Below are positions 1-49,284 of a DNA stretch of 64,000 bases, piece by piece. The notes under the pieces are model-generated. The model did not search any database. It saw only the letters and a list, made by a program, of their open reading frames with translations, and was not told the origin of the DNA. Position 1 is the stretch's first letter. Every line of letters begins with the position of its first letter. The position numbers and the translations under genes are program-made. Source of the stretch: Phycisphaerae bacterium (GTDB lineage: Bacteria > Planctomycetota > Phycisphaerae > Sedimentisphaerales > Anaerobacaceae); assembly GCA_012744475.1 (NCBI GenBank), contig JAAYBV010000097.1, forward strand, positions 62,001 to 126,000. Reading direction: 5' to 3'.

Positions 1-731
1 GCCCGGTGGCCGTGGGTGTCGTTGATGGCCTTGAGGTTGTCGATGTCGGCCATGATCATCGAGATCGTGCCGCCATAGCGACGCGACCGCCACAACTCCC
101 GCTCCAGGGCTTCATAGAAGGTCCTGTGGTTCATCAACCCGGTCAGGCCGTCCAGCATGGCCTGACGCTGCATCTTCTCGAACAGCTTGATATTGCCGAT
201 CGAGGCACCGATCAACTGCCCCAGCAACTCGATCAGCGAGATGTCTTCCCGACCGAACGAGGCAGGTTGGGCCTTGTCCGCCAGATTCAGGACGCCAACG
301 ACACCGTCGTGACAGATCAGGGGCACGATCGCACAATTGGTCGTCGTGTAGTTTCCCGCAAATGCCCGTTGCGACTTCTTGATGATCGGTCTGTTGTACG
401 TGTCGATGTCACCGGTCAGGATCAGTTCCTTGCTCTTGACGGCCACGACCATCGGTGACGGCGGCGTCTGATTCAGGGACACGATCTTGTTGATGGGAAA
501 CGGATGGTTGCAGCGGACCAGATGGAGAATGTGGTTCGGCTCGTCCAGCACGTACAGTGACGCGAAAGTCGATCCTACGATCGCGGGAATCTTCGCGACG
601 CAGACATCTGCGATCCGGTCCATGTCCAGACTGTTGATCTGGCGCGCCAGCGGCGTGACCAGCTCCAGCAAGGAGCGGCCGGACGAGGGAGCGTCCTTGT
701 GCTCGTTCGATTGGTCGATTCGTCTGGTCAT
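1..731 (-). CDS. GAF-GGDEF protein, probable diguanylate cyclase (3' end cut by window)
   Basis: About 243 N-terminal residues are present. They hold a GAF sensor domain (roughly residues 20-185) followed by the start of a GGDEF domain, recognised from DGLTGLMNHRTFYEALE and then MADIDNLKAINDTHGH. The GGDEF signature loop, the catalytic residues and any I-site lie beyond the window edge, so activity cannot be judged. The family makes cyclic di-GMP from two GTP. The chosen ATG lies at 729-731; no strong Shine-Dalgarno is visible. The gene is divergent from the MerR gene across a 570-bp gap with an operator-like palindrome. The protein probably feeds the same c-di-GMP network as the HD-GYP and PilZ proteins elsewhere in the window (inference). 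Confidence 0.85.
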   Translation of the reverse strand, partial: MTRRIDQSNEHKDAPSSGRSLLELVTPLARQINSLDMDRIADVCVAKIPAIVGSTFASLYVLDEPNHILHLVRCNHPFPINKIVSLNQTPPSPMVVAVKSKELILTGDIDTYNRPIIKKSQRAFAGNYTTTNCAIVPLICHDGVVGVLNLADKAQPASFGREDISLIELLGQLIGASIGNIKLFEKMQRQAMLDGLTGLMNHRTFYEALERELWRSRRYGGTISMIMADIDNLKAINDTHGHR

Positions 732-18139: not shown

Positions 18140-18169
18140 TTGACGAAGCACCGCAGGCGACGGTATGAT
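18140..18169 (+). promoter_or_regulatory. promoter giving an apparently leaderless channel mRNA
   Basis: TTGACG (18140-18145), an 18-bp spacer and TATGAT (18164-18169). The ATG at 18179 is only 10 nt beyond the -10 element, so transcription would start at or within a few bases of the start codon. No Shine-Dalgarno is present. Confidence 0.55.
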
Positions 18170-28300: not shown

Positions 28301-28908
28301 GTCAGATCGCCGTCGACATCGTGCTCCTGCCCGAAGCGAGGATCGCCCGACTGGCGGTCGAGACCAACCGCAAACTGACCGGCAGCAGTTGTCGCGAGAT
28401 CGTTCTGGACGAGACCACGTGCCTGCCGCACATTTCCCTGGCGATGGGCTGCATCGAATCCGAGCAGGTCGATGCGATCGGAAAGATGCTCGGTGCGGTC
28501 GCGAAGGCCTGCCCTGTCGGCAAGCTTGCGATCACAGGAGTCGTGACGGTGCTGAACACACGGAACGAGCCGAACTCGCTCTTTGCCGTGGCCAAGACCG
28601 AGGCCCTTCAGACGCTGCACGAGCAGATCGTGGAAACGATAGAGCCCCATGCGAGCCACGACGTGACGGCCGAGATGATCTGCGGCGATGAAGAGGTGGC
28701 GCCGAGCACACTGGCGTGGATTCGGGACTTTCGCCGCAAGGCGGCGTTCGCCGTGTTCTTCCCGCACATCACGATCGGGTATGGCGTGGTGACCGAGCCG
28801 ATGACGTTCCCCATGGATTTCGTCGCCCCGCAGTTGGCCCTCTGCCACCTGGGCAACCACTGCACGTGCCGCAAGGTGCTCGCTTCGGCGTCAACGATCG
28901 ATCAGTGA
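28297..28908 (+). CDS. 2H phosphoesterase-superfamily protein (2'-5' RNA ligase-like)
   Basis: 203 residues. Two H-x-[ST]-hydrophobic motifs are present, LPHISLAMG near residue 45 and FPHITIGYG near residue 155, which form the paired active-site histidines of 2H enzymes. Such enzymes act on 2',3'-cyclic or 2'-5' phosphodiesters. It is translationally coupled to the PutP-type symporter (4-nt overlap). Its 3' end overlaps the 3' end of gspF by 7 bp on the opposite strand. Confidence 0.75.
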   Translation: MSQIAVDIVLLPEARIARLAVETNRKLTGSSCREIVLDETTCLPHISLAMGCIESEQVDAIGKMLGAVAKACPVGKLAITGVVTVLNTRNEPNSLFAVAKTEALQTLHEQIVETIEPHASHDVTAEMICGDEEVAPSTLAWIRDFRRKAAFAVFFPHITIGYGVVTEPMTFPMDFVAPQLALCHLGNHCTCRKVLASASTIDQ

Positions 28909-30092
28909 GCGATCACGCTGGAGACCCGGAAGACCGGCAGCAGAAGCGCAATGGCGATCGTTCCGATGACCACGCCGAGAATGGTGATCATCAGCGGCTC
29001 GATCACCGTCATCACGCTCTGGATGGAAGCCTGGAGCCTCTTCTCGTAGAAGATGGAGACCTTGTCGCACACCTCGCCCAGCCGACCGGCCTTCTCGCCG
29101 GCCCGCAGCATCTGAATGATCCCGGGCGCAATCAGCTTGGCGCGTTCGGAGATCAGAATGGCCTCCGAGAGCTGGTATCCATCCTGGACCCTTTCGTCCA
29201 CTTCTTCCCAGAGCTGCTGGAAGTAGTAGTTGTCCACACAGCCCTGGATCACGCGGATCGCGTCCAGGAGCCGAACCCCGGTATTGACCATCGTGGCCAT
29301 GATCCGCATGCTCCGCGTGACGACCATGTCCACGAACATGGTGCCGATGATCGGGGTCCGAATCTTCACCCCGTCGAGGACGCGCCGTCCGGAGACGGTG
29401 TGCGACCACCAGTACAAACCCACCCCCAGCAGGATGACGCTCGTCACCAGGGCCGCCATGATTGCCCCGTTGCCCACAATATGACTGATGTGAACGAGAA
29501 CCAGGGTGAGCTTGGGCAATGCCGCCTCGCGGGCTTCGTAAATCCGCATGAAGCGAGGCAGCACGAAGAACATCAACGTACCGGTGGCGGCGATCGCCAT
29601 CAACACCATGATCAACGGATACGTCAGAGCGCCGAGGACGCGCTTGCGCGTGTCGGCCTCGAAATTGAGGTATCCCGTCAGGACGGACAGCATCTCGACC
29701 ATTCGTCCGGAGGCCTCCGAGGCCTTCACCATACTGATGAACATCTTGTTGAACGTGTTCGGATAGAAGGTCAAGGCCCGGGAGAACATCTCGCCGCCTT
29801 TGACGCGTTCGGAGAGATCCAGGATGATGGCCTTGAATCGCGGGTCTGCGGCCTGTTCCCCGATGGCATCCAGGGCGTCGCTGAGGATGACGCCGCTGTC
29901 CAGCATGACCGCCAACTGCGTGGTGAAGAGAATCAGGTCGCTGGTCTTGACGCGCACCTTCCCCATCGGCGCCGGGTCCGCGGGACCGTGAGCAGCACCG
30001 CCGGCGCCCAGCTTCGATTCCGTGGGCGACGCCAACGTCGCGCCGCCGTCCTCGGTACCGGTCTTTCGCATCTCTGTCATCACAGTTGCCAT
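28902..30092 (-). CDS. gspF: type II secretion/type IV pilus inner-membrane platform protein GspF/PilC
   Basis: 396 residues. Two repeated GspF domains: DLILFTTQLAVMLDSGVILS starts the first, and VTRSMRIMATMVNTGVRLLD the second. Three hydrophobic segments are near residues 165-190, 205-230 and 365-390. A 45-residue low-complexity N-terminal extension precedes domain 1. It anchors the assembly ATPase and organises pseudopilus assembly. It is last in the minus-strand locus, 26 bp after gspE. Confidence 0.93.
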   Translation of the reverse strand: MATVMTEMRKTGTEDGGATLASPTESKLGAGGAAHGPADPAPMGKVRVKTSDLILFTTQLAVMLDSGVILSDALDAIGEQAADPRFKAIILDLSERVKGGEMFSRALTFYPNTFNKMFISMVKASEASGRMVEMLSVLTGYLNFEADTRKRVLGALTYPLIMVLMAIAATGTLMFFVLPRFMRIYEAREAALPKLTLVLVHISHIVGNGAIMAALVTSVILLGVGLYWWSHTVSGRRVLDGVKIRTPIIGTMFVDMVVTRSMRIMATMVNTGVRLLDAIRVIQGCVDNYYFQQLWEEVDERVQDGYQLSEAILISERAKLIAPGIIQMLRAGEKAGRLGEVCDKVSIFYEKRLQASIQSVMTVIEPLMITILGVVIGTIAIALLLPVFRVSSVIAH

Positions 30093-30118: not shown

Positions 30119-31855
30119 TCACGATTCGCCGCCAGCCGATGCGTCCAGGGCCGTGATGCGCAGAATCTCCTCGATCGACACGATCCCTGCCTTGACCTTC
30201 TCGATGCCGTCGAAGTGCAGCGGAGTCATGCCTTTGGCCAGGGCGGTCGCCCGGAGCTTCTTGGCGCTGACGCGTTCGTTGATCATCTCCATCATCTCGT
30301 CGTCCGGGACGAGCAACTCGTGAATGGCGATTCGCCCGACGTACCCGGTGTTGCGACACTTCCTGCACCCCACGCCCCGATAGAACTTGCAGGTCTCGCC
30401 GCCCTGGGCTTGGACGGACCTCTTCAGACTGGGCGACGGATCGTATTCCGTCTTGCAGTTCGAGCAGATCTTGCGGACCAGCCGCTGCGCCAGCACGCCC
30501 TTGAGGGAGGCGCTCACCAGGTACGGAGCCACCCCGAGATCGAGCAGACGGGTCACCGCGCCCGGCGCATCGTTCGTGTGCAGCGTGGACAACACCAGGT
30601 GCCCGGTCAGTGCGGCCTGGACGGCGATGTTGGCCGTGGCCTGATCGCGAATCTCGCCGACCATGATGATGTCGGGATCTTGTCGCAACAGGCTGCGCAG
30701 GGCGGTGGAGAATTCGAAACCCACCGCGGTGTTGACCTGGAACTGATTGATGCCGGAGATGTTGCACTCCACGGGGTCTTCCACGGTGCAGATGTTCACC
30801 TCTTCGCTGTTCAATTCGGACAGCGCGGCGTACAGTGTGGTGTTCTTGCCCGACCCGGTCGGGCCGGTAACGAGAACGATACCGTTGGGCACCTGAATGA
30901 TCTGGCGAAAATGCAGCAGGTTGTCGTACGTGAAACCGAGCGACTCCAGGTTGTAGAGGATCTTCTGCGGATCGATAATCCGAATGACGACCTTCTCTCC
31001 AAAATTGCCCGGCATGACGGAGACGCGCAAATCGATCGGGCGGCCTTCCACCAGGACGTGAATGCCTCCGTCCTGCGGAAGACGTCGCTGCGCGATGTCC
31101 AGCTCGGCCATGATCTTGATTCGGGAGACGACGGCCGCGTGCATCTGGTGCGGCGGACGCATCTTCTCGTAGAGCTTGCCGTCGACGCGATACCGGACGC
31201 GCAGCCGCTTTTCGTCGCACTCGATGTGGATGTCGCTGGCGTTCTCACGGACGGCGTTGTACAGCAGGTAGTTGACCAGCTTGACCACCGGCGACTGGCC
31301 GGCCACCTCCTCGAGATTGCTGATGTCCTGCGTGATGCTCTCGATGAGGGTGAATTCCTCAAGCCCCTCCTCGTCGATGATGTCGTCAATCACGAAGACA
31401 TTGGCCGCGGGGAGATACGACTGTAGCGTGGCCCGAATGTCCTTGGCGGTCGAGCAGACCACCCGAACGCGGCACCCGCTGATCCGCTCGATTTCGTCGA
31501 TCAGAAAGACGTTCGTCGGCTCGTTGACCGCCACGGTCAGGACATCATGAACCTTGAACAGAGGCAGGACGATGTGCGCTTCGAGGAACTCTCGCGGCAG
31601 CAGTTCCACGGCCTTGGGGTCGCACAGCTTCGGGCTGACCTGCGCATAGGGGACCCCGTAGGCTTCCGCCAGGGCCGCCGCGATCTGGTTCTCCGTGCAA
31701 TGGCCCATCTCGACGAGCAACTCGCCGAGAAGCTTGCGATGGCCCTTCTCCTGCTGTTCGGCCAGGGCCCTGTCGATCTGCTCCTGACTGACCACGCCCC
31801 GCGCCAGCAGAAGCTGGCCGAGCTGCATCTTGTTCTCAAGCAGAATCTGACTCAT
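30119..31855 (-). CDS. gspE: assembly ATPase GspE/PilB with Asn in Walker A
   Basis: 578 residues from ATG 31855. An N-terminal MshEN-type domain (MQLGQLLLARGVVSQEQIDR, then YGVPYAQVSP) is one known to bind c-di-GMP in some homologues. The ATPase core follows, with Walker A GPTGSGKNTTLYAAL, Asp box and Walker B (DIIMVGEIRDQATA), His box LSTLHTNDAP and a zinc site CSNCKTE...CRKCRNTGY. In Walker A the Mg-coordinating Thr/Ser is Asn (codon AAC), which is unusual; the second ATPase in this window has the normal GKT. It powers pseudopilus or pilus assembly. It lies between the STAS gene and gspF. Confidence 0.92.
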   Translation of the reverse strand: MSQILLENKMQLGQLLLARGVVSQEQIDRALAEQQEKGHRKLLGELLVEMGHCTENQIAAALAEAYGVPYAQVSPKLCDPKAVELLPREFLEAHIVLPLFKVHDVLTVAVNEPTNVFLIDEIERISGCRVRVVCSTAKDIRATLQSYLPAANVFVIDDIIDEEGLEEFTLIESITQDISNLEEVAGQSPVVKLVNYLLYNAVRENASDIHIECDEKRLRVRYRVDGKLYEKMRPPHQMHAAVVSRIKIMAELDIAQRRLPQDGGIHVLVEGRPIDLRVSVMPGNFGEKVVIRIIDPQKILYNLESLGFTYDNLLHFRQIIQVPNGIVLVTGPTGSGKNTTLYAALSELNSEEVNICTVEDPVECNISGINQFQVNTAVGFEFSTALRSLLRQDPDIIMVGEIRDQATANIAVQAALTGHLVLSTLHTNDAPGAVTRLLDLGVAPYLVSASLKGVLAQRLVRKICSNCKTEYDPSPSLKRSVQAQGGETCKFYRGVGCRKCRNTGYVGRIAIHELLVPDDEMMEMINERVSAKKLRATALAKGMTPLHFDGIEKVKAGIVSIEEILRITALDASAGGES

Positions 31856-31886
31856 ACCCCGCCTCTCCACATCGTGTCCGGCACGC

Positions 31887-32222
31887 TCAGGCAAAGCTCC
31901 GGACCGCTTCGGCCAGTTCCGCGTGACGATCGAATTCGGTCTGAAGACCGGTAATCTCGAGAATCTTCTCGAGGGTTTCGTCCAGCCCGGCCAGCTTGAG
32001 CTGCGTGCGGTTCTGACGGCAATACTGCCGCACCCACAGCAGCAGTTCCAGCCCCTGGCTGTCCACCCCGTTAACGTTGCTCATATCGACCACGATCCGC
32101 TTGCGTCCCGCAGCCGTCGTCTCCGTCACCGTATCCTTCAGTGATGCCGCGATGTCCCCATCGAGTTCGCCCTGCAACTCGACGACCGTGACATCGTTGT
32201 AGTTCTGCCTGTTGATCTTCAT
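31887..32222 (-). CDS. STAS-domain protein, anti-sigma factor antagonist-like
   Basis: 111 residues, a single STAS domain. VTVVELQGELDGDIAASLKD is the N-terminal strand-helix, and NVNGVDSQGLELLLWV holds the conserved D-S phosphoacceptor region of SpoIIAA-like antagonists. The start overlaps the HD-GYP stop (ATGA), so the two are coupled. A partner anti-sigma kinase is not identified. Being inside the secretion locus, it may transmit signals to that system or to stress sigma factors. Confidence 0.88.
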   Translation of the reverse strand: MKINRQNYNDVTVVELQGELDGDIAASLKDTVTETTAAGRKRIVVDMSNVNGVDSQGLELLLWVRQYCRQNRTQLKLAGLDETLEKILEITGLQTEFDRHAELAEAVRSFA

Positions 32223-33928: not shown

Positions 33929-33980
33929 GGCCCTCTCAAGATCCTTCAGAACAGGCAGTGCTCCGGCAATCGCCTTCGGG

Positions 33981-34379: not shown

Positions 34380-34435
34380 CCACTCCAAAACTGGGTTTCA
34401 GGAATCCCCCCCGTGAAGAGGCGCGAACTCCCCCG

Positions 34436-35942: not shown

Positions 35943-37709
35943 TTAGCGTCTCTTCCAGTTCTTGGCCTCTTGCTGATCGATCGCCTGTTGAACGATACTG
36001 TCGATCCGCTCGAGTTCATCGGGATCGGTTTCGACGATAATCCGTTCCCTCAGCCGCAGCGCCTCCAGATACGACGGACGCATCATCAGCGCGACCTTGA
36101 CGTTGTACACGGCGCTGTCGACATCGCCTTCGAGATAGTATTTGGCCGCTCGCGCGTAGGCGTCCTCCGCCATGCGCGAACGATCGAGGGCCTGCAGGTT
36201 GTGCCTGGCGCCGTCCATCTTCAGCCGGATGTCGTCGGCGCGATCTGCGCCACCCGTCTCGGAAGGCTCTTCGATGATATGAGGCGTCAACATGATGATC
36301 ACCTCTTCGCGCCCAACTGTGTCCGTGGTACCGCGGAACGCGACGCCGATCAACGGCAGGTTGCCCAGCAGCGGCACCTGGTTTCGTGACGTATTCGTAT
36401 AGTCACGGAACAGGCCCCCAAGAATCACCGTCTCACCATCCTTGACGATCACATTGGTCCGGAGCTCCGTCGTCTGCTCTTGGGGAAGAGAGTTCAGAAT
36501 CTGTCCGTCACTGTCTTTCGGATAGATGTCCATCCGAATATAACCGTCGCTGCCGATGTACGGCCGGAAGATCAACTGCGTACCGGTATTCAAGAAGGCC
36601 ACCGACTGCGTGGTCGTGGTCTGGGTCTGGGTCGTCTGGTCCAGGTACCCCAGCTTCTTACCGATCAGCACAGAGCCTTCCTGCTTGTTGACCGCCAGGA
36701 TCTTCGGGTTGGCCAGCAGCGTCGTGTCCGTGACTTCTTCCAGAGCCGTGATAATGGCCTGGACGTTGTCAGACGAGAACCCTATCCTCAAGCCCGTTGC
36801 GCCACCCTCACTGGCCTTCGCCAGGAAGCCGGATGTCTGCCAAGGTGTGCCCTGGCCCCCGACGATACTGGCGGGATAGCCGGTAATGGCGACGCCGCTG
36901 AGGAGGTTCCAGTCCACGCCAAACTGCGTGGTATCTTTCAGCCGTGCAGCGAGGATCGTCGCTTCGACCAGCACCTGCTTGGGCCGAACGTCGATCTCCC
37001 GAATGACTGCTTCGGCCCGCTCGATGTTCTCCGGGAAGTCGAAGACCACGAGCATGTCATTGGCGGCCATTTTGTCGCCACCGCCACCACCGCTGAGAGA
37101 TCCACCCCCTGCGCCTGCGCTGCTGGCGGAGGAGATCTTCTCTTCGGCGGCCGTCGTCTTGGTGATCTGCGCGCTGGCGCTGAGCACCGGGCGGACCAGC
37201 TTTTCCGCCTCTTCGGCGGTCGTGTAGTACAGCGTGATCACCTTGTGGACCATCCGTTCGGGGTCTTCCTTGATCTTCTTGTGCTCGTCCTTGGTGCGAA
37301 TGTGAATCAGGTTGCCCTCCTGCACCGGGACGAACTTGTCGCCCAGCATGGCCGCCAGCGCCTGTTCAAACGTCACATCGCGCAGTTCCGGACAATTCAG
37401 GGGACCACTGACACTGGCCGAAGGAACAATGTTCTTGCGGCACAGCTTGGCCAGCAGACGCAGCCCATCCCGCACATCGCCGTCCTTCTTGAAGGCGATG
37501 AACTTGATGATGACTCCATCACCGGAGAAGTCCACCTGGGCCTGATCGGGTTCAACGGCCAGGGTGTCCATCGCCGCCTCAGAAGTCGCTGCCGGATCGC
37601 TCTCGGCAGCCGTCACCGGTCCGGCCAACAGAGCCAGCACCGCCATAACGCAAAGCCATCGGCCCCACCGGGCCTCCAAAGGTTTCACTGTTGTTCTGTC
37701 GTAGTACAT
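35943..37709 (-). CDS. gspD: secretin (GspD/PilQ family) outer-membrane channel
   Basis: 588 residues. A signal peptide (LCVMAVLALLAGPVTA, about 20-35) and an N-domain with the LRDVTFEQALAAML motif are followed by a Gly/Ser-rich low-complexity loop (about 200-220) and the secretin core. The core contains VLVEATILAARLKDTTQFGV and the C-terminal VPLLGNLPLIGVAFRGT with VIIMLTPHIIEEP. The last 100 residues are helical and TPR-like (YYLEGDVDSAVYNVKVALMM), a C-terminal extension beyond the secretin. AAGGAG lies 8 nt before the ATG. This is the exit pore for the locus. Confidence 0.93.
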   Translation of the reverse strand: MYYDRTTVKPLEARWGRWLCVMAVLALLAGPVTAAESDPAATSEAAMDTLAVEPDQAQVDFSGDGVIIKFIAFKKDGDVRDGLRLLAKLCRKNIVPSASVSGPLNCPELRDVTFEQALAAMLGDKFVPVQEGNLIHIRTKDEHKKIKEDPERMVHKVITLYYTTAEEAEKLVRPVLSASAQITKTTAAEEKISSASSAGAGGGSLSGGGGGDKMAANDMLVVFDFPENIERAEAVIREIDVRPKQVLVEATILAARLKDTTQFGVDWNLLSGVAITGYPASIVGGQGTPWQTSGFLAKASEGGATGLRIGFSSDNVQAIITALEEVTDTTLLANPKILAVNKQEGSVLIGKKLGYLDQTTQTQTTTTQSVAFLNTGTQLIFRPYIGSDGYIRMDIYPKDSDGQILNSLPQEQTTELRTNVIVKDGETVILGGLFRDYTNTSRNQVPLLGNLPLIGVAFRGTTDTVGREEVIIMLTPHIIEEPSETGGADRADDIRLKMDGARHNLQALDRSRMAEDAYARAAKYYLEGDVDSAVYNVKVALMMRPSYLEALRLRERIIVETDPDELERIDSIVQQAIDQQEAKNWKRR

Positions 37710-37778: not shown

Positions 37779-38387
37779 TCACTTTCTTACGTCGGCGGGC
37801 GACGACAGCTTCAACGTCCACTGTCGGTCGCGGCATGTCACAAGCACGGCATCTTCTTTGATCTGTACTACTTCGAATACGTAGGCGTCGGAACCGTCCG
37901 AGAGAGCAATGGTGTCCCCGAGGCGCACCAGTCGATCGTTGACGAACGCCTGCGGGTCCGCGCTCCACAGCACGGCCTCCAGCCTGAGACTCTTGGCCAG
38001 TTTGTCGATCACGTCATTGGTTCTCTTCGATGCAACCGTTTGTACTTCTGTTTCAGAACCCGTGCTCTGTGGTTTGGACACACTGGAGAAACGGCTCCAG
38101 TCTTGCGTCGTGAAGAAATCTCTGTGGATGCGGTCGTTCCGCCCGGGCTCCAGCGGCAAATCGACGAGACGCACCGTGGGCGGTTGTTTCTGCGGTTCAT
38201 CGGTCGGCGGCGTCCCATCCGGCCTGGCTTCCGCCGCCCGGGGTTTCTGGCCGGTGAACACGCGGATCCACATCACGGCCATCACGATCACCAGGGCGAT
38301 CGCAAAGCCCGTCCTCCTGCCACCTCGGATCAGGTGGCTGGCCATCTGAGAAACCGAGCCCAACGTGTTGGTCGCATTACGCTTCAT
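37779..38387 (-). CDS. PilP/GspB-like inner-membrane linker protein
   Basis: 202 residues. A short cytoplasmic tail and one membrane helix (GFAIALVIVMAVMWIRVF) precede a Pro-rich disordered stretch. A C-terminal small beta domain follows (LEAVLWSADPQAFVNDRLVR, LGDTI, YVFEVVQIKEDAVLV), typical of GspB/GspC HR or PilP domains that bind the secretin. It overlaps the PilO-like gene by 11 nt and precedes the secretin gene, the position PilP occupies in pilMNOPQ operons. Sequence identity to either family looks weak; assignment is mainly by topology and position. Confidence 0.65.
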   Translation of the reverse strand: MKRNATNTLGSVSQMASHLIRGGRRTGFAIALVIVMAVMWIRVFTGQKPRAAEARPDGTPPTDEPQKQPPTVRLVDLPLEPGRNDRIHRDFFTTQDWSRFSSVSKPQSTGSETEVQTVASKRTNDVIDKLAKSLRLEAVLWSADPQAFVNDRLVRLGDTIALSDGSDAYVFEVVQIKEDAVLVTCRDRQWTLKLSSPADVRK

Positions 38388-38991
38388 CGTTCACGGCATC
38401 CGTTGTGTTCTGGCTCGCGGACAGATTTGCGTTCTGCGTCTTCCGCGTCCGATAGAAGATGACCGCGTCGGCGTCCATGGTCACACTGCCGGTGAAGGCC
38501 TTCGCATTGACCAACGTGGTCTTCTCAATTCGCACAAGCCGACCGAGATTCTGAAGGTCCTGAAAGAACCCGAAGATCCCATTCAGGTTGCCCACACACT
38601 TCATGTGGACGGGAATGCAGATCAGGTCATCGGAGATTCGTTCCTGACCGAGAACCACATCCTGGTCCGACAGGTTGTTCTTGGTCATGATCTGGGCGAT
38701 CTGCCCCAGAAACTGCCCCAAGGCGCTTTCGTAGGGAATCCAGTCTTCGTAGTTCCGGACGTACCGATCGGTCTCTCGGAGGCGTTCGGTCAGGGATGGC
38801 AGCACGTCGCTGTGCGCCTCGGCGGCAGCGATCAACTGCGTCCGGCGCGTCTTCGCTTCGACCAGAGATCGGAGTCTTTCACGCGACGGCAGATATCCGT
38901 ACAGCACAAAGTCCGCCAGGAACAGGCCGCCAATGGCGAAGACCCACAACTGCTGCCGGCTCAGCCAGGAATTGGATCGTTTCTCACTCAT
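38377..38991 (-). CDS. pilO: PilO-like inner-membrane assembly protein
   Basis: 204 residues from ATG 38991, which overlaps the PilN stop (ATGA). One N-terminal membrane helix (LWVFAIGGLFLADFVLYGYL), a coiled-coil segment and a C-terminal ferredoxin-like domain (CIPVHMKCVGNLNGIFGFFQ, NLGRLVRIEKTTLV) correspond to PilO/GspM. It would dimerise with PilN in the alignment subcomplex linking PilM to PilP and the secretin. Confidence 0.82.
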   Translation of the reverse strand: MSEKRSNSWLSRQQLWVFAIGGLFLADFVLYGYLPSRERLRSLVEAKTRRTQLIAAAEAHSDVLPSLTERLRETDRYVRNYEDWIPYESALGQFLGQIAQIMTKNNLSDQDVVLGQERISDDLICIPVHMKCVGNLNGIFGFFQDLQNLGRLVRIEKTTLVNAKAFTGSVTMDADAVIFYRTRKTQNANLSASQNTTDAVNDEA

Positions 38992-39713
38992 CGCTTGCCC
39001 TGTTCCTCGTAGTTGGCCAGGTAGCACGTGATCTCAAACTCCGTGACATTGACCGATCGCGCATCGGTCCGCTGGGGCTCGCTCTCATTCGCGTGCGAGG
39101 CCGCAGACACAGCGGCGCCGATCTGAATCGTGTTGTCGCGATACAGCGGGTGAACCTGCCGGAAATAGGGGGAATCGTCCAGCCGATGGACCAGGGCCGC
39201 GACCTCGGCCGAATCGGCCGCGATTCCCGCCAGGGCCACCCGAAACCGGACCTTGCCCAGAGAGGCTGCTTTTGCAGGCGCACGAGAGGCGCTGGCGCTG
39301 CGCACCGCGGCCGCGTCGCGTTCCGGCGTCTTTTCCTGGGCGGCCAAGGGCTCGGATATGAACTCCAGGCGGCTTAGAAGCACGCGGTCACTGATGATGT
39401 AGCTGATCTCCGCCAGCACCGCCGCCACGTCGATGCGCGCATCGACCTGCTCGACCGAAGCCACCTTGGCCCGGCGCGCTTCCAGTTGCTCGGTGACGGC
39501 GCCATACTCACGCAGCATGCCCTCGGCCCAGAACCGTCGGTCCTCGAGCCTGGCCAGGTCCGCGTTGGCTCTCGAAATCCTGTGCGTCGCGATCGCGTTG
39601 TATGTCACCAGGACCAGAAACAAGACCATCAGCGCGGCATACTGCCGGCGCATATGAAGCCGACGGCGCCTGCCTTCTTTGTGCCATTCTGGAAGAAAGT
39701 CGATCTCTTTCAC
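38988..39713 (-). CDS. pilN: PilN-like inner-membrane assembly protein
   Basis: 241 residues from GTG 39713 (TAGTG overlap with the PilM stop). The N-terminus VKEIDFLPEWHKEG matches the PilN I-N-L-L-P-type motif that binds PilM. A membrane helix (ALMVLFLVLVTYNAIA), a coiled coil and a C-terminal ferredoxin-like domain interrupted by a low-complexity insert (about 130-150) follow. It couples PilM in the cytoplasm to PilO in the periplasm. Confidence 0.82.
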   Translation of the reverse strand: MKEIDFLPEWHKEGRRRRLHMRRQYAALMVLFLVLVTYNAIATHRISRANADLARLEDRRFWAEGMLREYGAVTEQLEARRAKVASVEQVDARIDVAAVLAEISYIISDRVLLSRLEFISEPLAAQEKTPERDAAAVRSASASRAPAKAASLGKVRFRVALAGIAADSAEVAALVHRLDDSPYFRQVHPLYRDNTIQIGAAVSAASHANESEPQRTDARSVNVTEFEITCYLANYEEQGKR

Positions 39714-40861
39714 TATGGTGCACCTTCCAGTATGGATTCCAGTCCGACATCGGATTTCACCAGGGCCACCGTGGAGGCACCCCATCCTTTAAGGCTCAGT
39801 CCGACCGCCAGCGAGAAGTCCGCTGCCGGATGGAGGTCCTCCGTATTGGCCCCAATCGACGTGAGATCGAACCCGCGCAGCGGTTCGGCGATATCCGTCT
39901 CGATGGCCAAGTGATGTCTCATTACCGTGAGCAAGGCCTCCTCGTGGACACCACCTCCGGCCAGCAGAGCCCGCTCGACTCGTTTGCCTCGGAACGTCAC
40001 CGTGTAGTACCGAAGGCACAGCGAGATCTCTGCGGCCAGTTGCTCGGCCGTGCCGTGCAGCACGTCGGCAACGAGACGACGCGTCGCCGCATCGACCGAA
40101 TCGCTGGACGTCATCTTGCGGCGCAGAGACTCGGCGTCGGCCACAGAGATCGACAGCCGGGCCGCAATGTCTTCCGCGAACCGCGAGACCCCGAACGCCA
40201 TCTGTTTGACGAAGCAGATCTCACCGGCCCGCCCCAGGACGACGGTGGTGTACCGATGGCCGACGTCCAGAAACATGATCGTTCGTTCCTTGTCTTCCTG
40301 GCGCCGCAGCACCCGCTCGAAACACCGGAACAGGGCACAGGGCGATGCGTCGATGCCCACCGGCTGCAGGCCCACCTCTTCCACAAGGGCGATGTGCTCT
40401 CGAATCACCTCGTCGTCACCGGCGAACAGGATGTATTCGTTCTTGAGTTCATCCCCCTGCCGAACGCTGCCGGCCAGCACGTAGCTTACCGAGTCGATCT
40501 TCGGGTTCAGTGCGAATCGATGGGCGGCTTCTCTGCGAAGCGTCTGCTCCACGTCATCGCCCGGCGTCTCCGCCAGTCTCACGGATGTGATCTTCAGATC
40601 GTCCGCCGGCAGAGCCGTGACCACGTCGGGTCCCCTGAAGGCCCCCTCGGCCAGCAGGCGCCGGACGGCCGGAGCCACCCGACGTCGCCACGAGTCATCG
40701 TCGCTCGCCTCATTCGAACCGACGACGGCCCTTTCGGCCGCGAGCACCCGGACCCCGTCCTCGGATACCGCCAACTGGATCATCTTGACAACGTTGTGTC
40801 CGATATCCAGTCCGATGGGCAGGATCTTCTCTCTTCGATTCATCCAATGAGACAGTCGCAT
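39713..40861 (-). CDS. pilM: PilM-like actin-fold assembly protein
   Basis: 382 residues from ATG 40861; a TTG two codons upstream is the alternative. The actin-like ATP-binding segments are PIGLDIGHNVVKMIQLAV, the phosphate-2 strand TIMFLDVGHRYTTVVLG and the adenosine motif ALLAGGGVHEEAL. VVTALPADDLKITSVRL is typical of PilM. It is the cytoplasmic ring protein of type IV pilus-like systems and forms a tightly overlapping unit with pilN and pilO. Confidence 0.88.
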   Translation of the reverse strand: MRLSHWMNRREKILPIGLDIGHNVVKMIQLAVSEDGVRVLAAERAVVGSNEASDDDSWRRRVAPAVRRLLAEGAFRGPDVVTALPADDLKITSVRLAETPGDDVEQTLRREAAHRFALNPKIDSVSYVLAGSVRQGDELKNEYILFAGDDEVIREHIALVEEVGLQPVGIDASPCALFRCFERVLRRQEDKERTIMFLDVGHRYTTVVLGRAGEICFVKQMAFGVSRFAEDIAARLSISVADAESLRRKMTSSDSVDAATRRLVADVLHGTAEQLAAEISLCLRYYTVTFRGKRVERALLAGGGVHEEALLTVMRHHLAIETDIAEPLRGFDLTSIGANTEDLHPAADFSLAVGLSLKGWGASTVALVKSDVGLESILEGAP

Positions 40862-40871
40862 ATCCAAACAC

Positions 40872-41396
40872 TCACTCAGAAACGGAGATGAACCCCGTCA
40901 CAGGCTCGACCGTCACCGTCCGCGTGAAATCCCCGGCCTTCAGCACCACGGTTCCACCATTGTCCGGGCTGCCGAGCGAATCGAACTCCACGAAATCGTT
41001 GTTGGAAGCACCGAACGCGGCACTTTCGACCTTCACCTGGTCCAGTCTTCCATCCGTGGTGAAATTGACGATGTACCCATTCTCCTTCTGGGTCACCGGG
41101 TGCTTGATCACCGCACCGCTCTGGTCCTGAATCTCATACCGTTCGTTCGCCGGATCGAAGACAACCTTGTGCTTCTGGCCCCGGCTGATCGCCATGCTCC
41201 TGGCGTATTCGAGATCGGCTGCCACGATGCCGCCGGCGGCGCGCATCTGCGAACTCGCGGCCGAGGACATCATCGGCACCGCGATCGCCGCGGAGATCGC
41301 AAGAATCACGATGACGATCAACAGCTCGATCAGCGTGAATCCGGCACGAGACCTCACGGTCTGCCCAACAGATTGTGCTGTCGTATTCCTACACAT
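40872..41396 (-). CDS. minor pseudopilin, GspH/FimT-like
   Basis: 174 residues. The prepilin signal is a 17-residue basic leader followed by [20 protein letters not shown], with the conserved Gly at -1 and Glu at +5 for prepilin peptidase. The body (LEYARSMAISRGQKHKVVFD) resembles GspH/FimT minor pilins. ATG 41396 is preceded by GGAGGCAAGG. It is 10 bp upstream of pilM, so it is part of the same transcript. Confidence 0.87.
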   Translation of the reverse strand: MCRNTTAQSVGQTVRSRAGFTLIELLIVIVILAISAAIAVPMMSSAASSQMRAAGGIVAADLEYARSMAISRGQKHKVVFDPANERYEIQDQSGAVIKHPVTQKENGYIVNFTTDGRLDQVKVESAAFGASNNDFVEFDSLGSPDNGGTVVLKAGDFTRTVTVEPVTGFISVSE

Positions 41397-41772
41397 GGTC
41401 AACCTTGCCTCCGTTTCTCTTTCGGCCCGTCGGGAGCCGGGCTTAACCTGCGACTGGACCGACCTGCCGAGACACTCGGCGTTTGACATGGCCGGCGCCC
41501 AAGCGCTGCCGCGACCGCCGTCTGCCGGCAGACCAAGAGACCCCCGACAGACCCTACAGGCGTCAGGAACGCGACGCGACGCGGCCAACGTCCCGAAATA
41601 TGCCTCCTGGATCGCCATTCGTTCTTGTGTCAAACACGTGGCCTCGGCGGCGCCTTTGACGCACGACCATCTCCCGCGGGCGGCGGCGAGTCGCGTTTTT
41701 TTCCTCCGCGACGCGTTGGGACCGATAAACCGCTCTGTGTTTTGGGACCTGGCCATCTGCTCCGCCACCTCA
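41397..41772. other. non-coding stretch between pseudopilin genes
   Basis: About 376 bp. The GspH frame stays open upstream but has no starts with ribosome-binding sites and no domain, so it is read as non-coding. On the minus strand TTTGACAC occurs near 41629 without a matching -10. The segment before the GspH start has several GC-rich stems (CGCCGAG...CTCGGC, GCCCGGC...GACGGGC) and could be a structured leader, but no known riboswitch consensus was recognised. Confidence 0.4.
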
Positions 41773-43479
41773 CTATTCCACGCGATGAATGCTCTTGAAG
41801 AACGCGCCCCCCGCCGGACTCCAGTCCACTCGCGACCCGGAAGCCCACGTCGTGATCGCCGCCTTCGTCGGCGACGCAACCACGTTCAACGCCGAGCCGC
41901 TCCCGGCAAAGGTCCAGTGTCCGATCAGTGAATCGCTCGGCAGGGCGAAGATCTCAGAGGCGAGCAACGCGCGCTTATAGACCCGCACTTCGTCCAGCAG
42001 GCCTTTGTACACGTAGCTGGCCGAACCGGTGCGATCGGCGCCGATGTTCAAGTGCCCGTCTCCACTTCCGGGCATGTTCGAAAAAGTGCCCGTGGCGCGC
42101 TCCGTCCAGTCCAGATATGACTTCATCGTGGTTCCCTGGCGGACCACCACCACATGGTGCCAAATCCCGTCCGTCAGCTCCGTGCGCAGAATCCCTGTGG
42201 ACCAGCGGACCGAGTCATGGCCGACGATCAATTCCGTCGCGGTGCTGTCGAACTGGAGCACCCAGTGGTTGATGCTTCCGGCCGGATCGGTCTTGCACAC
42301 GATTGCCGCCCAGGGGTTCTGCGTGACGGCAGGCGCGAGCAGAACGCTCAAGGTGTAGTCACCGGTGACCTGCAGACTGTCCGCATCGTCCAGCGTCTGC
42401 ATATATTGGCTGACCCCGTCGAGCGTCAGAACGCCCGTGGCCGGCCACGTCGGAATATTCCGAAGGATGGCGTCGTTGGGAATCCACGTGGAATCGATGG
42501 CGGCCTCCGCAATCTCGCCGTTGGCAAAAAGGCCGCCGACGATCTCGGCGTCCGAGCCGTGTCCCACGAGAACACTGCCGTCCACGGCGACGAGGCCCTC
42601 GATCTGGAGGTCGGTCGCGCCGTGAAGAAAGAGGTTCCCGGTGACATAGGCCGCCGGGAGGTTCTTGGCGGCCGTGAGCCTTGCCCCAACGCCCTTGATG
42701 ACAAGATCGCCTTCGACCAGCAACATGCCGTTGATGACGAGCGCCCCGTCCAAGGTAAGATTTCCGCTACACCGCCAGATCTTTGGCGAGCTGTAGCTGC
42801 CGCCGCTGACCGTGCCGGGTCCGATGGAGGAGATCACGTAGTCCGGATGGCTGTAACCCGCCGTCACGGGGGGCCACGTCATGGCCAAAGTCCCGGCGTC
42901 CTTGTACGTTCCGACGATGCCTCCGCTCAGACCGCCGGCGAAGAGGTCGCCGTCTACGGCGCCGGCAACCCCCAGATTGGTGAACGTCCCGGCCGCATAC
43001 GCGTCCCCGACCACACTCCAGGCCGCGCGATAAGACAGATCGCTGCCACACCACAGGCCGATAGCGGGGTCCAGACGAACGACCGCCGCAAAACTGCTAT
43101 TGCCCACCTGTTCCGCCTGGCGGAGCCGATAGGCCTCGCACGTGACATCGAAAACGCACTCATCGCTCGGATCGGCGGTAACGGTCACGTCGTAGAAGTC
43201 GTTCGTGTTGGGGTCCAGTTGGATCGATGTGTCTCCGGTCCAGTACGCACCCCCGGCGTCCTGCGGATTCAGAAGAAGACCACGGGCGTGTTCCAGGGCC
43301 GAGACCGCCATCTGGTCCATCTGGACGCGGACAGCCAGGCTCCGGCCCGACGCCAGCTCCACGTCACATCGGGCGATGAACCCCAGCGACAACAGGGTGA
43401 TCGCCATGATGATGCCCAGGACCAGCAGCAGCGCCACGCCTCTGCGACAAGGCCGAGTTGTCCGGATTCTCCTATTCAT
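41773..43479 (-). CDS. large minor pseudopilin (PilX/GspK-like) with C-terminal LamG domain
   Basis: 568 residues. The N-terminus RGVALLLVLGIIMAITLLSL is a PilX/GspK-type class III-like signal helix. The middle region (about 120-350) is repetitive, beta-rich and resembles a DUF-type polymer-forming or beta-helix segment (LTLDGALVINGMLLVEGDLV). Residues about 380-545 form a LamG/concanavalin-like domain: YTLSVLLAPAV, GIWHHVVVVRQGTTMKSYLD and GLLDEVRVYKRALLASEI. It overlaps the preceding gene by 8 nt. It is likely located at the pilus tip or pseudopilus, where the LamG domain could bind glycans. Confidence 0.82.
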   Translation of the reverse strand: MNRRIRTTRPCRRGVALLLVLGIIMAITLLSLGFIARCDVELASGRSLAVRVQMDQMAVSALEHARGLLLNPQDAGGAYWTGDTSIQLDPNTNDFYDVTVTADPSDECVFDVTCEAYRLRQAEQVGNSSFAAVVRLDPAIGLWCGSDLSYRAAWSVVGDAYAAGTFTNLGVAGAVDGDLFAGGLSGGIVGTYKDAGTLAMTWPPVTAGYSHPDYVISSIGPGTVSGGSYSSPKIWRCSGNLTLDGALVINGMLLVEGDLVIKGVGARLTAAKNLPAAYVTGNLFLHGATDLQIEGLVAVDGSVLVGHGSDAEIVGGLFANGEIAEAAIDSTWIPNDAILRNIPTWPATGVLTLDGVSQYMQTLDDADSLQVTGDYTLSVLLAPAVTQNPWAAIVCKTDPAGSINHWVLQFDSTATELIVGHDSVRWSTGILRTELTDGIWHHVVVVRQGTTMKSYLDWTERATGTFSNMPGSGDGHLNIGADRTGSASYVYKGLLDEVRVYKRALLASEIFALPSDSLIGHWTFAGSGSALNVVASPTKAAITTWASGSRVDWSPAGGAFFKSIHRVE

Positions 43480-44104
43480 CGTCGTCTCCCGTCACGAGAC
43501 CGTCGCCGGTAGCGTTCAGCAGGTGGCCGGCCCAGGCCAGCAGTGTCACATCCACTTCGTGCGTGCGGGCGACATGGTCCTGCGTCAGCTCAAAGGAGAT
43601 CGTCACGCGCCGGGTCGATGGAGCAGCGGGGTCGCACGCCAATTGCACATTGCCGCACGCGGGAAGAAGCGATACGGAGGCAACCGCATTCCCGCTCACC
43701 AGGCTGGCCTGGCTCACGGAAAGGACGCCCGAACTGAGCGTTACCGACGGATCGCTGACGGAGTAGAATCGCACCAGGCGAAGTGTGTCGTGCGTCGCGG
43801 TGCAGTCGAGGAAGGCCAGTTCATTCACGTTGATGCCGGCGTCCCCGTTGTAGTCCGCCAGCCAGATCGCCAGCTCGGTGTCCGACGCGGTCAGAATCAT
43901 CCGGCAGTTTCGAATCACTTCGACGATGCGCACCATGCCCAAACGAAGCCGGGCCTGGGATGACGCGGTGTCGCTGCCAGTCGTCGCCGCACTGTTCATC
44001 GCGAACGCCAGCGTCGCGACCGCCGACAGAAGGATCCCCGTGATGACCAGGGTCACCAGCAGCTCGACGAGCGTGAACGCCTTGATGTTTCGGCTTCGGT
44101 TCAT
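43472..44104 (-). CDS. minor pseudopilin, PilW/GspJ-like
   Basis: 210 residues from ATG 44104. The prepilin motif is IKAFTLVELLVTLVITGILL: Ala rather than Gly precedes Phe, which peptidases tolerate, and Glu+5 is present. The body contains SQARLRLGMVRIVEVIRNC, typical of PilW/GspJ, and a dockerin-like or EF-hand-like DYNGDAGINVNELAFLD loop. It overlaps the LamG pseudopilin by 8 nt. Confidence 0.82.
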   Translation of the reverse strand: MNRSRNIKAFTLVELLVTLVITGILLSAVATLAFAMNSAATTGSDTASSQARLRLGMVRIVEVIRNCRMILTASDTELAIWLADYNGDAGINVNELAFLDCTATHDTLRLVRFYSVSDPSVTLSSGVLSVSQASLVSGNAVASVSLLPACGNVQLACDPAAPSTRRVTISFELTQDHVARTHEVDVTLLAWAGHLLNATGDGLVTGDDDE

Positions 44105-44249
44105 TCGATCTTGTCCGGCGCCTGCCGTTCTGATCTCGGACGCCTTGGCCGCTCTACCGGGCCTCGACATGGCGGCAGGACGCGGATGTCAGTCCGGTCC
44201 TCCCGTGAATCGCCGCCCGCAATCGGATAGGGGTCCGCCTCAATTCAAA

Positions 44250-44708
44250 TCACTGGACTGCCTTACTGATCAGACGATAGATCGTCGCTACGTTCCGCCC
44301 CTGATGGGCCACTCGCACCATGGCGAGGACAAAGCCCGGCTGAGCGTCGTCGCTCTGCGGGGGCACATGCACGTATTCGCACCTGGCCTCGCGGCTGTAA
44401 TCGGCGTACATCGAATCGGTATAGGGGGTCCCACTGGCGTCCTGCACCTGCCCCTGGGATTCGATGCGGGTCCCATAGATATCGACGATGTCGTCGAACG
44501 GGGTGCTCACAATCCGCTCGATCAGGTCGTTGGCCAGCCTCGTGCCGAGCGTGCGGCGCACGCCTTCTGCCTGGACGGTCGCGCCGCCTGCAAACGGCAA
44601 CAGGACGCCGGCGGCGGCCATCCCCAACAGCACCGTCGCGAGCGTCGCCTCGGCCAGCGTGAAACCCCGCCGGACCGCGATGCCTCGTCGTTTGGGATCA
44701 ATAGGCAT
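44250..44708 (-). CDS. minor pseudopilin, PilV/GspI-like
   Basis: 152 residues. The signal is RRGFTLAEATLATVLLGMAA with Gly-1; the Glu after Leu-Ala is at +5. The TLGTRLANDLIERIVSTPFD segment is typical of PilV/GspI, where the helix after the signal carries A-x-x-L-x-E. It overlaps the preceding GspG-like gene by 11 nt. A 145-bp gap separates it from the PilW-like gene. Confidence 0.8.
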   Translation of the reverse strand: MPIDPKRRGIAVRRGFTLAEATLATVLLGMAAAGVLLPFAGGATVQAEGVRRTLGTRLANDLIERIVSTPFDDIVDIYGTRIESQGQVQDASGTPYTDSMYADYSREARCEYVHVPPQSDDAQPGFVLAMVRVAHQGRNVATIYRLISKAVQ

Positions 44709-45201
44709 AGTACGCTCTTCCCGCGTCGTCCGTCCCGGAGTTGCCGGGTCGGATTTCGCCCGTCCGCGCCCTGTAGATCCAGCCGTGACCATTATCGGGC
44801 GCCGCCGGAAAGTCCTCCCCGTCAGCCAGCATCCGGACCGTGGCCCGTCCGTTGCACGGATTCCTCGGCATATTCGACAGGTAAGGTCCGTATTTGTAGC
44901 CAGCGGTTCCCCGGGGGGCCGTCTGGCCCTCGGCGTCGCTGGCGAGCAGCGCCTGGGCAATGAAGACGTCGGCATCGACCGGCGAACCGCGACCGGCGGT
45001 ATACCCCGGCCCGACCTCCCCATGCTGGCTGGTGTACACCAGCACGAACCGCCGCAACACGTCGAGGTTGGCTTTCAGCACGCCGGCGCGAGCCGTGGTT
45101 CCGCTGTTCGCGACAGACGGAATGACCACGGCCGCCAGAATGCCCAGCAGAACCACCACAACCAGGATTTCCACCAGCGTAAAGGCCTTTGCTCTACACA
45201 T
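44698..45201 (-). CDS. pseudopilin, GspG-like
   Basis: 167 residues. The short 6-residue leader MCRAKA is followed by FTLVEILVVVVLLGILAAVV, with Ala at -1 and Glu+5. The GspG-like region is GVLKANLDVLRRFVLVYTSQ, with the C-terminal GHGWIYRARTGEIRPG ending typical of the family. ATG 45201 has AAGGAG 5 nt upstream. It is the third of the pseudopilins in transcription order. Confidence 0.85.
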   Translation of the reverse strand: MCRAKAFTLVEILVVVVLLGILAAVVIPSVANSGTTARAGVLKANLDVLRRFVLVYTSQHGEVGPGYTAGRGSPVDADVFIAQALLASDAEGQTAPRGTAGYKYGPYLSNMPRNPCNGRATVRMLADGEDFPAAPDNGHGWIYRARTGEIRPGNSGTDDAGRAYYAY

Positions 45202-45292
45202 GGTTCTCCTTCTGATTCGTACGGCACCCGCCGTATATGGGCAAACCGAACGGACGCGAGGTCCTTCGGATGCTTTTCTACGTTTCGGCCCA

Positions 45293-45901
45293 TCACAATC
45301 CGGCATGATGGACGCTGTCATTGGCAAAAATCTCGCCGGTCCCGGGCACATAAGCCCAGCCGGCGTTTCCCGGAACGGGAACGTCGTTCCGGTCACGCAC
45401 CACAACGATGGCCCCGCTGCCGTTGAACGGATTGGCGGGAACCTCTTCGAGATACGGACCATAGCGGAACACCTCGTCCCGCCGGGTCCTCGGCCGGTCT
45501 GGCTTGACGTTCCCGTCGGCGTCGGTGCAGTAGAGCATCTGATCGAATCGGCCATCGGCCGCGATCGTGCCATCGACCACCCGCATCGGGGGATTGTCGC
45601 TGTGCTGCACCTTGTACAGTTCGATCTGCGAGCGGAGCAACTGAAGGTTGTTGCACAGCTCGTCCATCCGGTTCTCCGCGATCCCCGCGCCGCTGAACCG
45701 GGGCGCTACAACGGCCGCCACCACCGCCAGCACCATCACCACGATCGTCGCCTGGATCAGCGCGAAAGCCCTTCGGCGAGCCGTCCCATCCCTCCTCGGG
45801 CGACGGGCAGAAGGTCGCGTCGCCGTGCCGGTCGAGACGGCGCCGACAGCCGGCGCGACGTTGATCGCCTGAGCCGCGGCAAATCCATTGTGTTTCGTCA
45901 T
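45293..45901 (-). CDS. atypical pseudopilin with long leader and no Glu+5
   Basis: 202 residues; ATG 45901 has GAGGAGAGGGA just upstream. A 50-residue basic, Ala/Arg-rich leader precedes RAFALIQATIVVMVLAVVAA. The processing motif is degenerate: Ala instead of Gly-1, ALIQ instead of TLIE, so Glu+5 is replaced by Gln. The body is clearly GspG-like (ENRMDELCNNLQLLRSQIEL, GWAYVPGTGEIF). Glu+5 is needed for methylation and assembly in studied pilins, so this member may be unprocessed or act as an assembly regulator. Confidence 0.75.
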   Translation of the reverse strand: MTKHNGFAAAQAINVAPAVGAVSTGTATRPSARRPRRDGTARRRAFALIQATIVVMVLAVVAAVVAPRFSGAGIAENRMDELCNNLQLLRSQIELYKVQHSDNPPMRVVDGTIAADGRFDQMLYCTDADGNVKPDRPRTRRDEVFRYGPYLEEVPANPFNGSGAIVVVRDRNDVPVPGNAGWAYVPGTGEIFANDSVHHAGL

Positions 45902-45984
45902 TCCCTCTCCTCCATTGGCATTACAGGATGAGCGTTTGCTCATCGCCTCGGCATGAAAACGCCGAGGAACCTCTTCGTCGTGAT

Positions 45985-46025
45985 AAAAAAAGCCGGCCGA
46001 CTCCATGGGAGCGGGCCGGCCGGCT
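45985..46025 (-). terminator. Rho-independent terminator between first and second pseudopilin genes
   Basis: On the minus strand AGCCGGCCG (46025-46017), a 17-nt loop, and CGGCCGGCT (45999-45991) followed by a run of T (45990-45985). It directly follows the stop of the first pseudopilin gene at 46046. It should make the upstream gene more abundant than those that follow. Confidence 0.8.
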
Positions 46026-46045: not shown

Positions 46046-46555
46046 TCAGCCCTCTTCTTCTTCAGGAACAAGCGCATCGCCAGCCTTAAGCGACGCCAGC
46101 ACAGCGGCATCATCCTCATCGTCGAGGCACGTGGCGTCCAGATACATGGCGCCGGTGTCCTGATCGTAGATCCAGCCATTGTTGGCCCCCCCGGCCGCCG
46201 CAACGCCTCTCTGGTTGTTCCAGGGATTCACGGGAAGGATCTGCATGTACGGACCATACGGATATACCGCCTTGTCGCGTCCCTCTACTTCGACATATCC
46301 GTCCCCCGAGAGGGCGGCATTCGAACACATCGTCATCGCATCCTCGAAGTCCGCCAGTGTAGGCACATTGTCATTGTGCTGAATCCTGTACAGCTCAATC
46401 TGCGACCGCAGGCTCTGCAAGCTGCTCAGCGAGCTGCTGACCTTCGCCTCGGTGCTGGCCTGGGTGAACTGAGGAACCACGATCGCGGCCAGAATGCCCA
46501 GAATGACCACGACGATCAGGATTTCCACCAACGTAAAGCCTCTGTTTGCCTTCAT
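46046..46555 (-). CDS. gspG: major pseudopilin, GspG-like
   Basis: 169 residues. The ideal prepilin signal KANRGFTLVEILIVVVILGI has Gly-1 and Glu+5. The body is of GspG type: SSLSSLQSLRSQIELYRIQH, then YMQILPVNPWNN and a GWIYDQDTGAMYLDA ending, and finally an acidic tail. ATG 46555 follows GAGGAGG by 8 nt. It is the first pilin gene of the locus, has its own terminator and a long structured leader, and is the probable major subunit. Confidence 0.92.
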   Translation of the reverse strand: MKANRGFTLVEILIVVVILGILAAIVVPQFTQASTEAKVSSSLSSLQSLRSQIELYRIQHNDNVPTLADFEDAMTMCSNAALSGDGYVEVEGRDKAVYPYGPYMQILPVNPWNNQRGVAAAGGANNGWIYDQDTGAMYLDATCLDDEDDAAVLASLKAGDALVPEEEEG

Positions 46556-46688
46556 GTCATTGTCCTCCTCGTTGTGCGTAAGAAAAAGAAACATGGAAAA
46601 CGATTGGTTGTTTCGACGTTGTTCGTCGCTTGTTCCGTGAACCTTATCGACAGGATCGCAAGGTCACTTGATTCACCGCTCTTCTCTT

Positions 46689-49261: not shown

Positions 49262-49284
49262 ATCGGTCTCTCCATTCTGCGCCC

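Follow-up and report, generated by a model that had tools for sequence, protein, structure and literature searches.

A ComZ/GspK-like minor pilin of a Phycisphaerae bacterium with a nested LamG domain of apparently permuted strand order and mosaic interior

A gene in a type IV pilin cluster of a Phycisphaerae bacterium encodes a protein which follows, as judged from structural models, the plan of the Thermus minor pilin ComZ, with a LamG domain nested at the end of its beta-solenoid. Domain architecture, predicted fold, gene cluster, presence and absence of LamG among orthologues, strand order and mosaic pattern were established computationally, starting from a stretch of 64,000 nucleotides (here called the window). 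In our judgement the protein is rather probably a ComZ/GspK-type minor pilin that caps a type IV filament, with LamG as a tip lectin or CBM whose specificity part is exchangeable. The first-pass annotation of this DNA had overlooked that the core is ComZ-like, that LamG is inserted in nested fashion and with permuted strand order, that its evolution is mosaic and that the genome contains 104 LamG matches. PilC of Streptococcus sanguinis already provides an example of a minor pilin with a lectin-type module; as far as literature searches show, the nested LamG in a ComZ-like pilin, its permuted strand order and its mosaic interior are new. Among the open-licence papers listed by these searches, none dealt by its title with a permuted or exchanged LamG in pilins.

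Domain architecture and predicted fold

The LamG pilin is encoded by an intact open reading frame of 568 aa with an ATG start. The following features were assigned (window coordinates, all on the minus strand; evidence in parentheses):

41773..43479, minus: ComZ/GspK-like minor pilin with nested LamG, 568 aa (ORF, Pfam, NCBIfam, alignment, AlphaFold2, fold comparison)
43438..43479, minus: prepilin leader, residues 1-14, ending in CRRG before the putative cut (predicted site, orthologue alignment)
43270..43437, minus: N-terminal pilin helix, residues 15-70, without Glu5 (NCBIfam, alignment, AlphaFold2)
43069..43269, minus: pilin-like antiparallel sheet, residues 71-137 (AlphaFold2; superposition of a LamG-free orthologue)
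42478..43068, minus: beta-solenoid, residues 138-334 (AlphaFold2, fold comparison)
41890..42477, minus: nested LamG insert, residues 335-530 (Pfam, alignment, AlphaFold2; missing in 30/64 aligned orthologues)
42010..42372, minus: LamG interior, residues 370-490, mosaic between orthologues (pairwise distance, windowed identity, trio tests)
41902..41928, minus: putatively permuted strand SLIGHWTFA, residues 518-526, the first strand in ordinary LamG domains (motif and profile comparison)
41776..41889, minus: conserved C-terminal tail, residues 531-568, common to LamG-free orthologues (alignment)

An AlphaFold2 model of the whole protein, built on an alignment of 50 proteins, reached a pLDDT of 91.9 and a pTM of 0.85. 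It consists of a helix (residues 13-70), an antiparallel sheet to about residue 137, solenoid strands to about 346, a LamG sandwich (about 350-525) and a short tail. The three parts proposed at first pass, namely helix, beta region and LamG domain, are thus all recovered in the model. The LamG domain is supported by a match to Laminin_G_3 (PF13385) at residues 354-510 (77.1 bits, E 2e-21, cut-off 27.6), by a ConA-like fold with Z 19.0 and by the high confidence of the predicted fold. The helix had been called PilX/GspK-like; it is present in the model, but the NCBIfam model NF037980 (GspK) matches only weakly, with 24.1 bits over residues 13-75 and below its cut-off of 130. The beta region described as repetitive exists (residues 82 to about 346) and can be specified further as a beta-solenoid of the ice-binding-protein/ComZ type; FfIBP superposes on the model range 138..537 at Z 16.3. 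The N_methyl model of Pfam gave no match in the LamG pilin.

Two other identities were considered and rejected. The match to TafC (NF052521), a protein on which a search of the open-licence literature listed no paper, covers the LamG part alone and scores 37 bits vs 410. Binding domains of nerve toxins among the fold neighbours of LamG reflect the common jelly-roll fold at about 9-15% identity, with no sign of a toxin.

Prepilin leader and pilin class

The leader MNRRIRTTRPCRRG is basic and carries a Gly at its end. Inspection by eye revealed a Gly followed by a hydrophobic block in 63 of the 64 aligned orthologues, the remaining one being masked at this block. The prepilin-type site, a point on which the pilin reading might have failed, is therefore conserved among the aligned orthologues and the reading stands. 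A short basic leader, Gly at position -1 and a long helix with some 20 hydrophobic residues identify the protein as a member of the pilin superfamily; a hydrophobic residue in place of Glu5 and a gene position after I and J fit the GspK/PilX type. GspK tip pilins lack Glu5; likewise, none of the 63 orthologues displayed has Glu at +5 (by eye).

The ComZ-like core

To represent the core, a LamG-free orthologue (L104, 375 aa) was modelled with a pLDDT of 84.1. Its best PDB match in Foldseek is ComZ of Thermus thermophilus (6qvi, E 3e-5). VIA-align superposed the two with Z 12.2 over 276 residues at an rmsd of 10.4, so the domains are probably placed differently. Ice-binding-protein solenoids gave Z 13-15, PilA of S. 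sanguinis Z 9.1 and the XcpV-XcpW complex Z 8.4; it is the sheet part of L104 that aligns with XcpV/XcpW, EpsI/EpsJ and S. sanguinis PilA. The beta-solenoid is inserted ahead of the last strands of the pilin sheet, as in ComZ, although the superposition over the whole length is loose (rmsd 10.4). According to the ComZ structure report, that solenoid is inserted after the penultimate strand of a GspK-like pilin and before the last one, and its nearest fold is FfIBP; the authors argue that the solenoid fits at the filament tip only, and ComZ, which binds DNA, is proposed there as the pilus-tip DNA receptor of Thermus (PMC6561018).

Presence and absence of LamG among orthologues

A total of 70 loci with a pilin frame (the window's own, 29 and a further 40) were sampled; other places, mostly short N-terminal matches, lie outside this sample. 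From these loci 64 orthologues were aligned, leaving aside L037 (gene split over two frames, LamG present), L060 and L071 (gene start missing, LamG present) and three short N-terminal pieces in which LamG was not seen (L072, L076, L077). At L037 (positions 941-2637; also L100) the split lies inside LamG and reflects sequencing error or decay. Among the sequences compared, the nearest relative with a name is 'Phycisphaerales bacterium Planc_01' (62% identity); the labels of most others read Sedimentisphaerales, Phycisphaerae or Planctomycetota.

LamG is present in 34 of the 64 aligned orthologues and missing from the other 30. The domain sits inside the protein, with the solenoid before it and the last strands after it, and not at the protein end: a tail of about 36 residues (from about residue 531) with the motif ..ITAAPxKAAI..W.PAAGAFFKSI.R follows in carriers and LamG-free orthologues alike, except that L023 stops at a contig end ahead of it. 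A domain merely appended at the C-terminus is ruled out by this shared downstream tail. On a tree of the columns outside LamG, the distribution takes six changes on the best topology, and well-supported branches force two or more of these. Constraining the carriers to a single clade was rejected (AU p 0.001), which excludes one gain followed by vertical inheritance alone. Median genome size was 4.3 Mb with LamG vs 2.8 Mb without (p 0.007, kinship ignored). Nevertheless, no link to genome size was found once relatedness was allowed for, this comparison having only 2 independent pairs on supported branches.

Strand order of the pilin LamG domains

In these genomes an ordinary LamG domain starts with a strand such as LVGHWKLDE, followed by DSSGNG and then by the part modelled in Pfam. 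For comparison, 43 non-pilin LamG domains were collected from the window's genome and 15 others, at loci retrieved either with the Pfam model or through their similarity to pilin LamGs. A relaxed motif for the strand occurs upstream in 41 of the 43 non-pilin domains (1.6 expected by chance) and in none of the 34 pilin domains (chance 1.8). Downstream it is found in 33/34 pilin domains (chance 3.4) vs 5/43 non-pilin ones (chance 4.5), the sole pilin miss being the window's own SLIGHWTFA, whose final letter the motif does not permit. With a stricter motif, 22 of the 43 non-pilin domains had the strand upstream and none had it downstream; of the 34 pilin domains, none had it upstream and 28 had it downstream. 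At the corresponding place of the 30 LamG-free orthologues, the strand motif was not detected in any.

Shifting the end strand to the front raised the score against a profile of the 43 non-pilin domains in all 34 pilin domains, by 16.2 bits on average, compared to a mean of 1.0 bits for a shuffled strand shifted in the same way. The window's LamG rose from 99.1 to 111.5 bits. By these sequence comparisons, the pilin LamG appears as a circular permutation of the other LamGs of these genomes, with the canonical first strand standing last.

A mosaic interior

In a tree of the 34 pilin and 43 non-pilin LamGs the pilin domains do not group together, and at least four changes are forced. One origin for all pilin LamG sequences was rejected by a one-clade constraint (AU p 1.9e-6). 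L033 and L035 are sisters in the core, and a sisterhood of their LamGs is rejected (AU p 0.0004; a pair picked with the tree already in view). LamG sisterhood of L029 and L030 was not rejected by the AU test (p 0.24), and BLAST of the f2-family LamG against other LamGs was indecisive. In L027 and L034, from two genomes placed in the window's own genus, the core of the LamG pilin groups with another clade and the LamG is of a different type.

Pairwise distances were compared among the 33 complete pilins, i.e. without the truncated L023. They correlate at 0.69 between two core pieces and at 0.32 between each core piece and LamG, and mean identity is lowest in LamG (33%, compared to 52% and 40% for the other parts). 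L020 and L045 illustrate this pattern, being 80% identical in the core and 35% in LamG. By stretch, their identity is 14% at residues 381-430, 29% at 431-480 and 79-93% at 511-545. In this pair the end rim with the permuted strand stays with the core, and the interior of L045 resembles distant pilins. At core sites where L020 and L031 differ, L045 agrees with L020 at 128 and with L031 at 14, while at the interior sites it agrees with L031 at 55 and with L020 at 8 (Fisher 7e-28). Between certain distant pilins the interiors agree at 55-63%, although they differ from those of closely related pilins.

Trios for such tests were picked after seeing distance outliers, 11 as mosaics and 4 as controls. 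The former gave p values from 2.8e-6 to 7e-28, the latter 0.50, 0.19, 0.11 and 0.015, the last in the direction of more, not less, LamG likeness.

As the permuted order is common to the pilin LamGs, one original frame is indicated, and a single permuted frame whose interior was exchanged later is the simplest reading. Alternatively, LamG may have been captured repeatedly at one site, or fast evolution may distort the LamG tree. The sequence pattern suggests that the putative binding part has been exchanged between species. We see roughly even chances that the permuted LamG came into the tip pilin of Sedimentisphaerales-type planctomycetes as a frame with fixed rims, and that its ligand-binding interior is an exchangeable specificity cassette, passed between the tip pilins of different species and swapped with other LamG genes of the genome. 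If so, binding at the pilus tip would be re-tooled much like that of phage tail tips.

Gene cluster and genome machinery

The neighbouring genes of the filament machinery are, in window coordinates:

46046..46594, minus: GspG/major-pilin-like protein (Pfam, NCBIfam)
45293..46006, minus: GspG-like pilin (NCBIfam)
44698..45573, minus: GspG-like pilin, coordinates of the listed ORF, whose true start is probably nearer to residue 125 (Pfam, NCBIfam)
44250..45023, minus: pilin, GspI/PilV position (Pfam, neighbourhood)
43472..44170, minus: pilin, GspJ/PilW position, overlapping the LamG pilin gene by 8 bases (ORF, Pfam, neighbourhood)
40872..41879, minus: GspH/FimT-like pilin, coordinates of the listed ORF, whose true start is probably nearer to residue 161 (Pfam, NCBIfam, neighbourhood)
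39713..40867, minus: PilM (Pfam)
38988..39785, minus: PilN (Pfam)
38377..39027, minus: PilO
37779..38387, minus: PilP position, without Pfam match (neighbourhood)
35943..37709, minus: PilQ-type secretin (Pfam)
30119..31894, minus: PilB/GspE ATPase
28902..30092, minus: PilC/GspF platform protein

The LamG pilin gene is the sixth in a run of three GspG-like genes and the I, J, K and H positions. PilM, PilN, PilO, the PilP position and the secretin follow, with PilB and PilC further down the same strand. The order I-J-K-H-M-N-O-P-Q is kept among 54 relatives' loci: the J gene was found at 51 of them, the H gene at 52, the M gene at 47 and the secretin at 42, and the misses are at least partly due to contig ends. 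Between secretin and PilB lie genes for a PAS histidine kinase and an HD-domain (HD_5) protein (window 32219-35884, minus strand), which may tie the fibre to signalling; a kinase match was found downstream in 34/54 relatives' loci. Apart from the main cluster, a second T2SSE-type ATPase gene (56820-58184, plus strand) is followed by a pilin-like gene (58279-59085, plus strand) with an N-methylation motif and a sub-threshold match to DUF1559.

The genome also contains a prepilin peptidase gene (L142), in whose translation GLGD and paired CxxC features were seen by eye. PilT scores above the TIGR01420 cut-off at five places in the genome, none of them within the window. The window's genome holds 18 matches to the PilT-family ATPase model and 13 secretin matches over 11 contigs, and the cell thus has several type IV filament systems. 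Since the cluster lacks PilT and 13 secretin matches exist, any of several ATPases may serve this fibre, which could stay short like a T2SS pseudopilus.

The polysaccharide-degradation genes noticed at first pass are indeed present in the window, as a sulfatase (16577-18151) and a rhamnogalacturonan lyase of family 11 (47567-49288, minus strand). The lyase gene adjoins the pilin cluster, and a homologue lies upstream of the pilins in 18/54 relatives' loci (uncorrected for contig ends). The window's genome has 104 places that match LamG PF13385 at E ≤0.001, many of them lying in reading frames some 980 residues long. This organism uses LamG widely as a building block, and with so many matches the domain alone says little on pili or pectin.

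Proposed function

The nearest fold to the LamG domain is domain 4 of the arabinanase AbnA (5hon; Z 18.9-19.0, rmsd 2.4, 18% identity), which was found with arabinopentaose bound and assayed for arabinan binding (reported in PMC9110388). PAPP-A (Z 18.4) and pentraxins (Z about 18) tie with it. Because of this tie neither arabinan nor any glycan is confidently predicted, and since such folds also bind proteins, the fold itself does not give glycan binding. We favour a tip lectin because of a direct precedent, PilC of S. sanguinis, described as a ConA-like minor pilin that binds sialylated and sulfated glycans and is modelled at the tip (PMC9934059), and because a survey counts PF13385 among the common architectures of modular pilins (Raynaud et al. 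2021, PMC8179133).

According to this reading, the prepilin peptidase would cut after Gly14 and the processed pilin would join the H-I-J-K-like minor pilins in initiating the fibre; this would bring the solenoid and the nested LamG sandwich to the exposed end. LamG, acting as a lectin or CBM, could then grip a polysaccharide or a glycosylated surface, towards which a PilT encoded elsewhere in the genome might pull the cell. Exchange of the interior between pilins would swap the ligand, while the docking parts stay.

It is unlikely, though it comes closest to the tip lectin, that the protein instead forms the pseudopilus tip of a machine resembling type II secretion. The filament would then remain in the cell, and LamG would aid export by holding, in the periplasm or at the secretin, a secreted enzyme or the glycan of that enzyme. 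Among curated pilin models the N-terminus scores as GspK, the neighbours are GspG/H-like, polysaccharide enzyme genes are close by and the cluster is without PilT. However, PilM, PilN and PilO are separate with no fused GspL, the best match of the core is a competence-pilus protein, and PilT is encoded at the five places mentioned above. We regard it as improbable that the core serves as a DNA receptor for natural transformation, with LamG as an accessory for binding matrix or DNA mixed with polysaccharide. ComZ, the best match of the LamG-free orthologue, does bind DNA according to its structure report (PMC6561018), but it has no counterpart of the LamG found in more than half of the aligned orthologues (34/64). 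Quite improbable as well is a structural spacer or protein-docking module of freely drifting sequence: LamG is the least conserved part, 30/64 orthologues manage without it and pentraxin-like folds bind proteins, but drift leaves unexplained why interiors of distant pilins are alike and those of close relatives are not.

One gene position offers a natural experiment here, as close relatives have a tip pilin without LamG, or with one type of it or another. In pairs such as L020 and L045 most of the difference lies in the LamG interior, so comparing their binding could show directly what an exchange does. In addition, the permuted LamG is a case from nature of a domain broken open at a different point and set inside another protein. 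Beyond a few pathogens, the gripping part of type IV filaments and its evolution are open for most bacteria; exchange of the binding part, if real, would let these bacteria alter what their pili grip.

Comparison with known systems

ComZ (6qvi) shares with the LamG pilin the GspK-like pilin and a solenoid of the ice-binding-protein type inserted ahead of the last strand. Unlike the LamG pilin, ComZ as described has no LamG, and its solenoid is longer with about 380 residues (PMC6561018). The likeness to GspK comprises the lack of Glu5, the K position after I and J and an extra domain inside the pilin sheet. In GspK, however, this insert is given as an alpha-domain (PMC8179133), and the LamG pilin scores only 24.1 vs 130 on NF037980.

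S. sanguinis PilC is likewise a minor pilin with a module of ConA-like type, glycan binding being a feature of PilC. Its module is described as C-terminal, following a short pilin and an Ig-like part (PMC9934059), whereas that of the LamG pilin is internal, apparently permuted and placed behind the solenoid. The survey of Raynaud et al. demanded the N-methylation motif IPR012902 according to its description (PMC8179133); as the LamG pilin lacks an N_methyl match, its family probably lies outside that survey. The nearest solved LamG-type domain is that of AbnA of Geobacillus, a GH43 arabinanase, in which domain 4 acts, in contrast to the pilin LamG, as the binding module of an enzyme and binds arabinan oligomers according to the AbnA report (PMC9110388).
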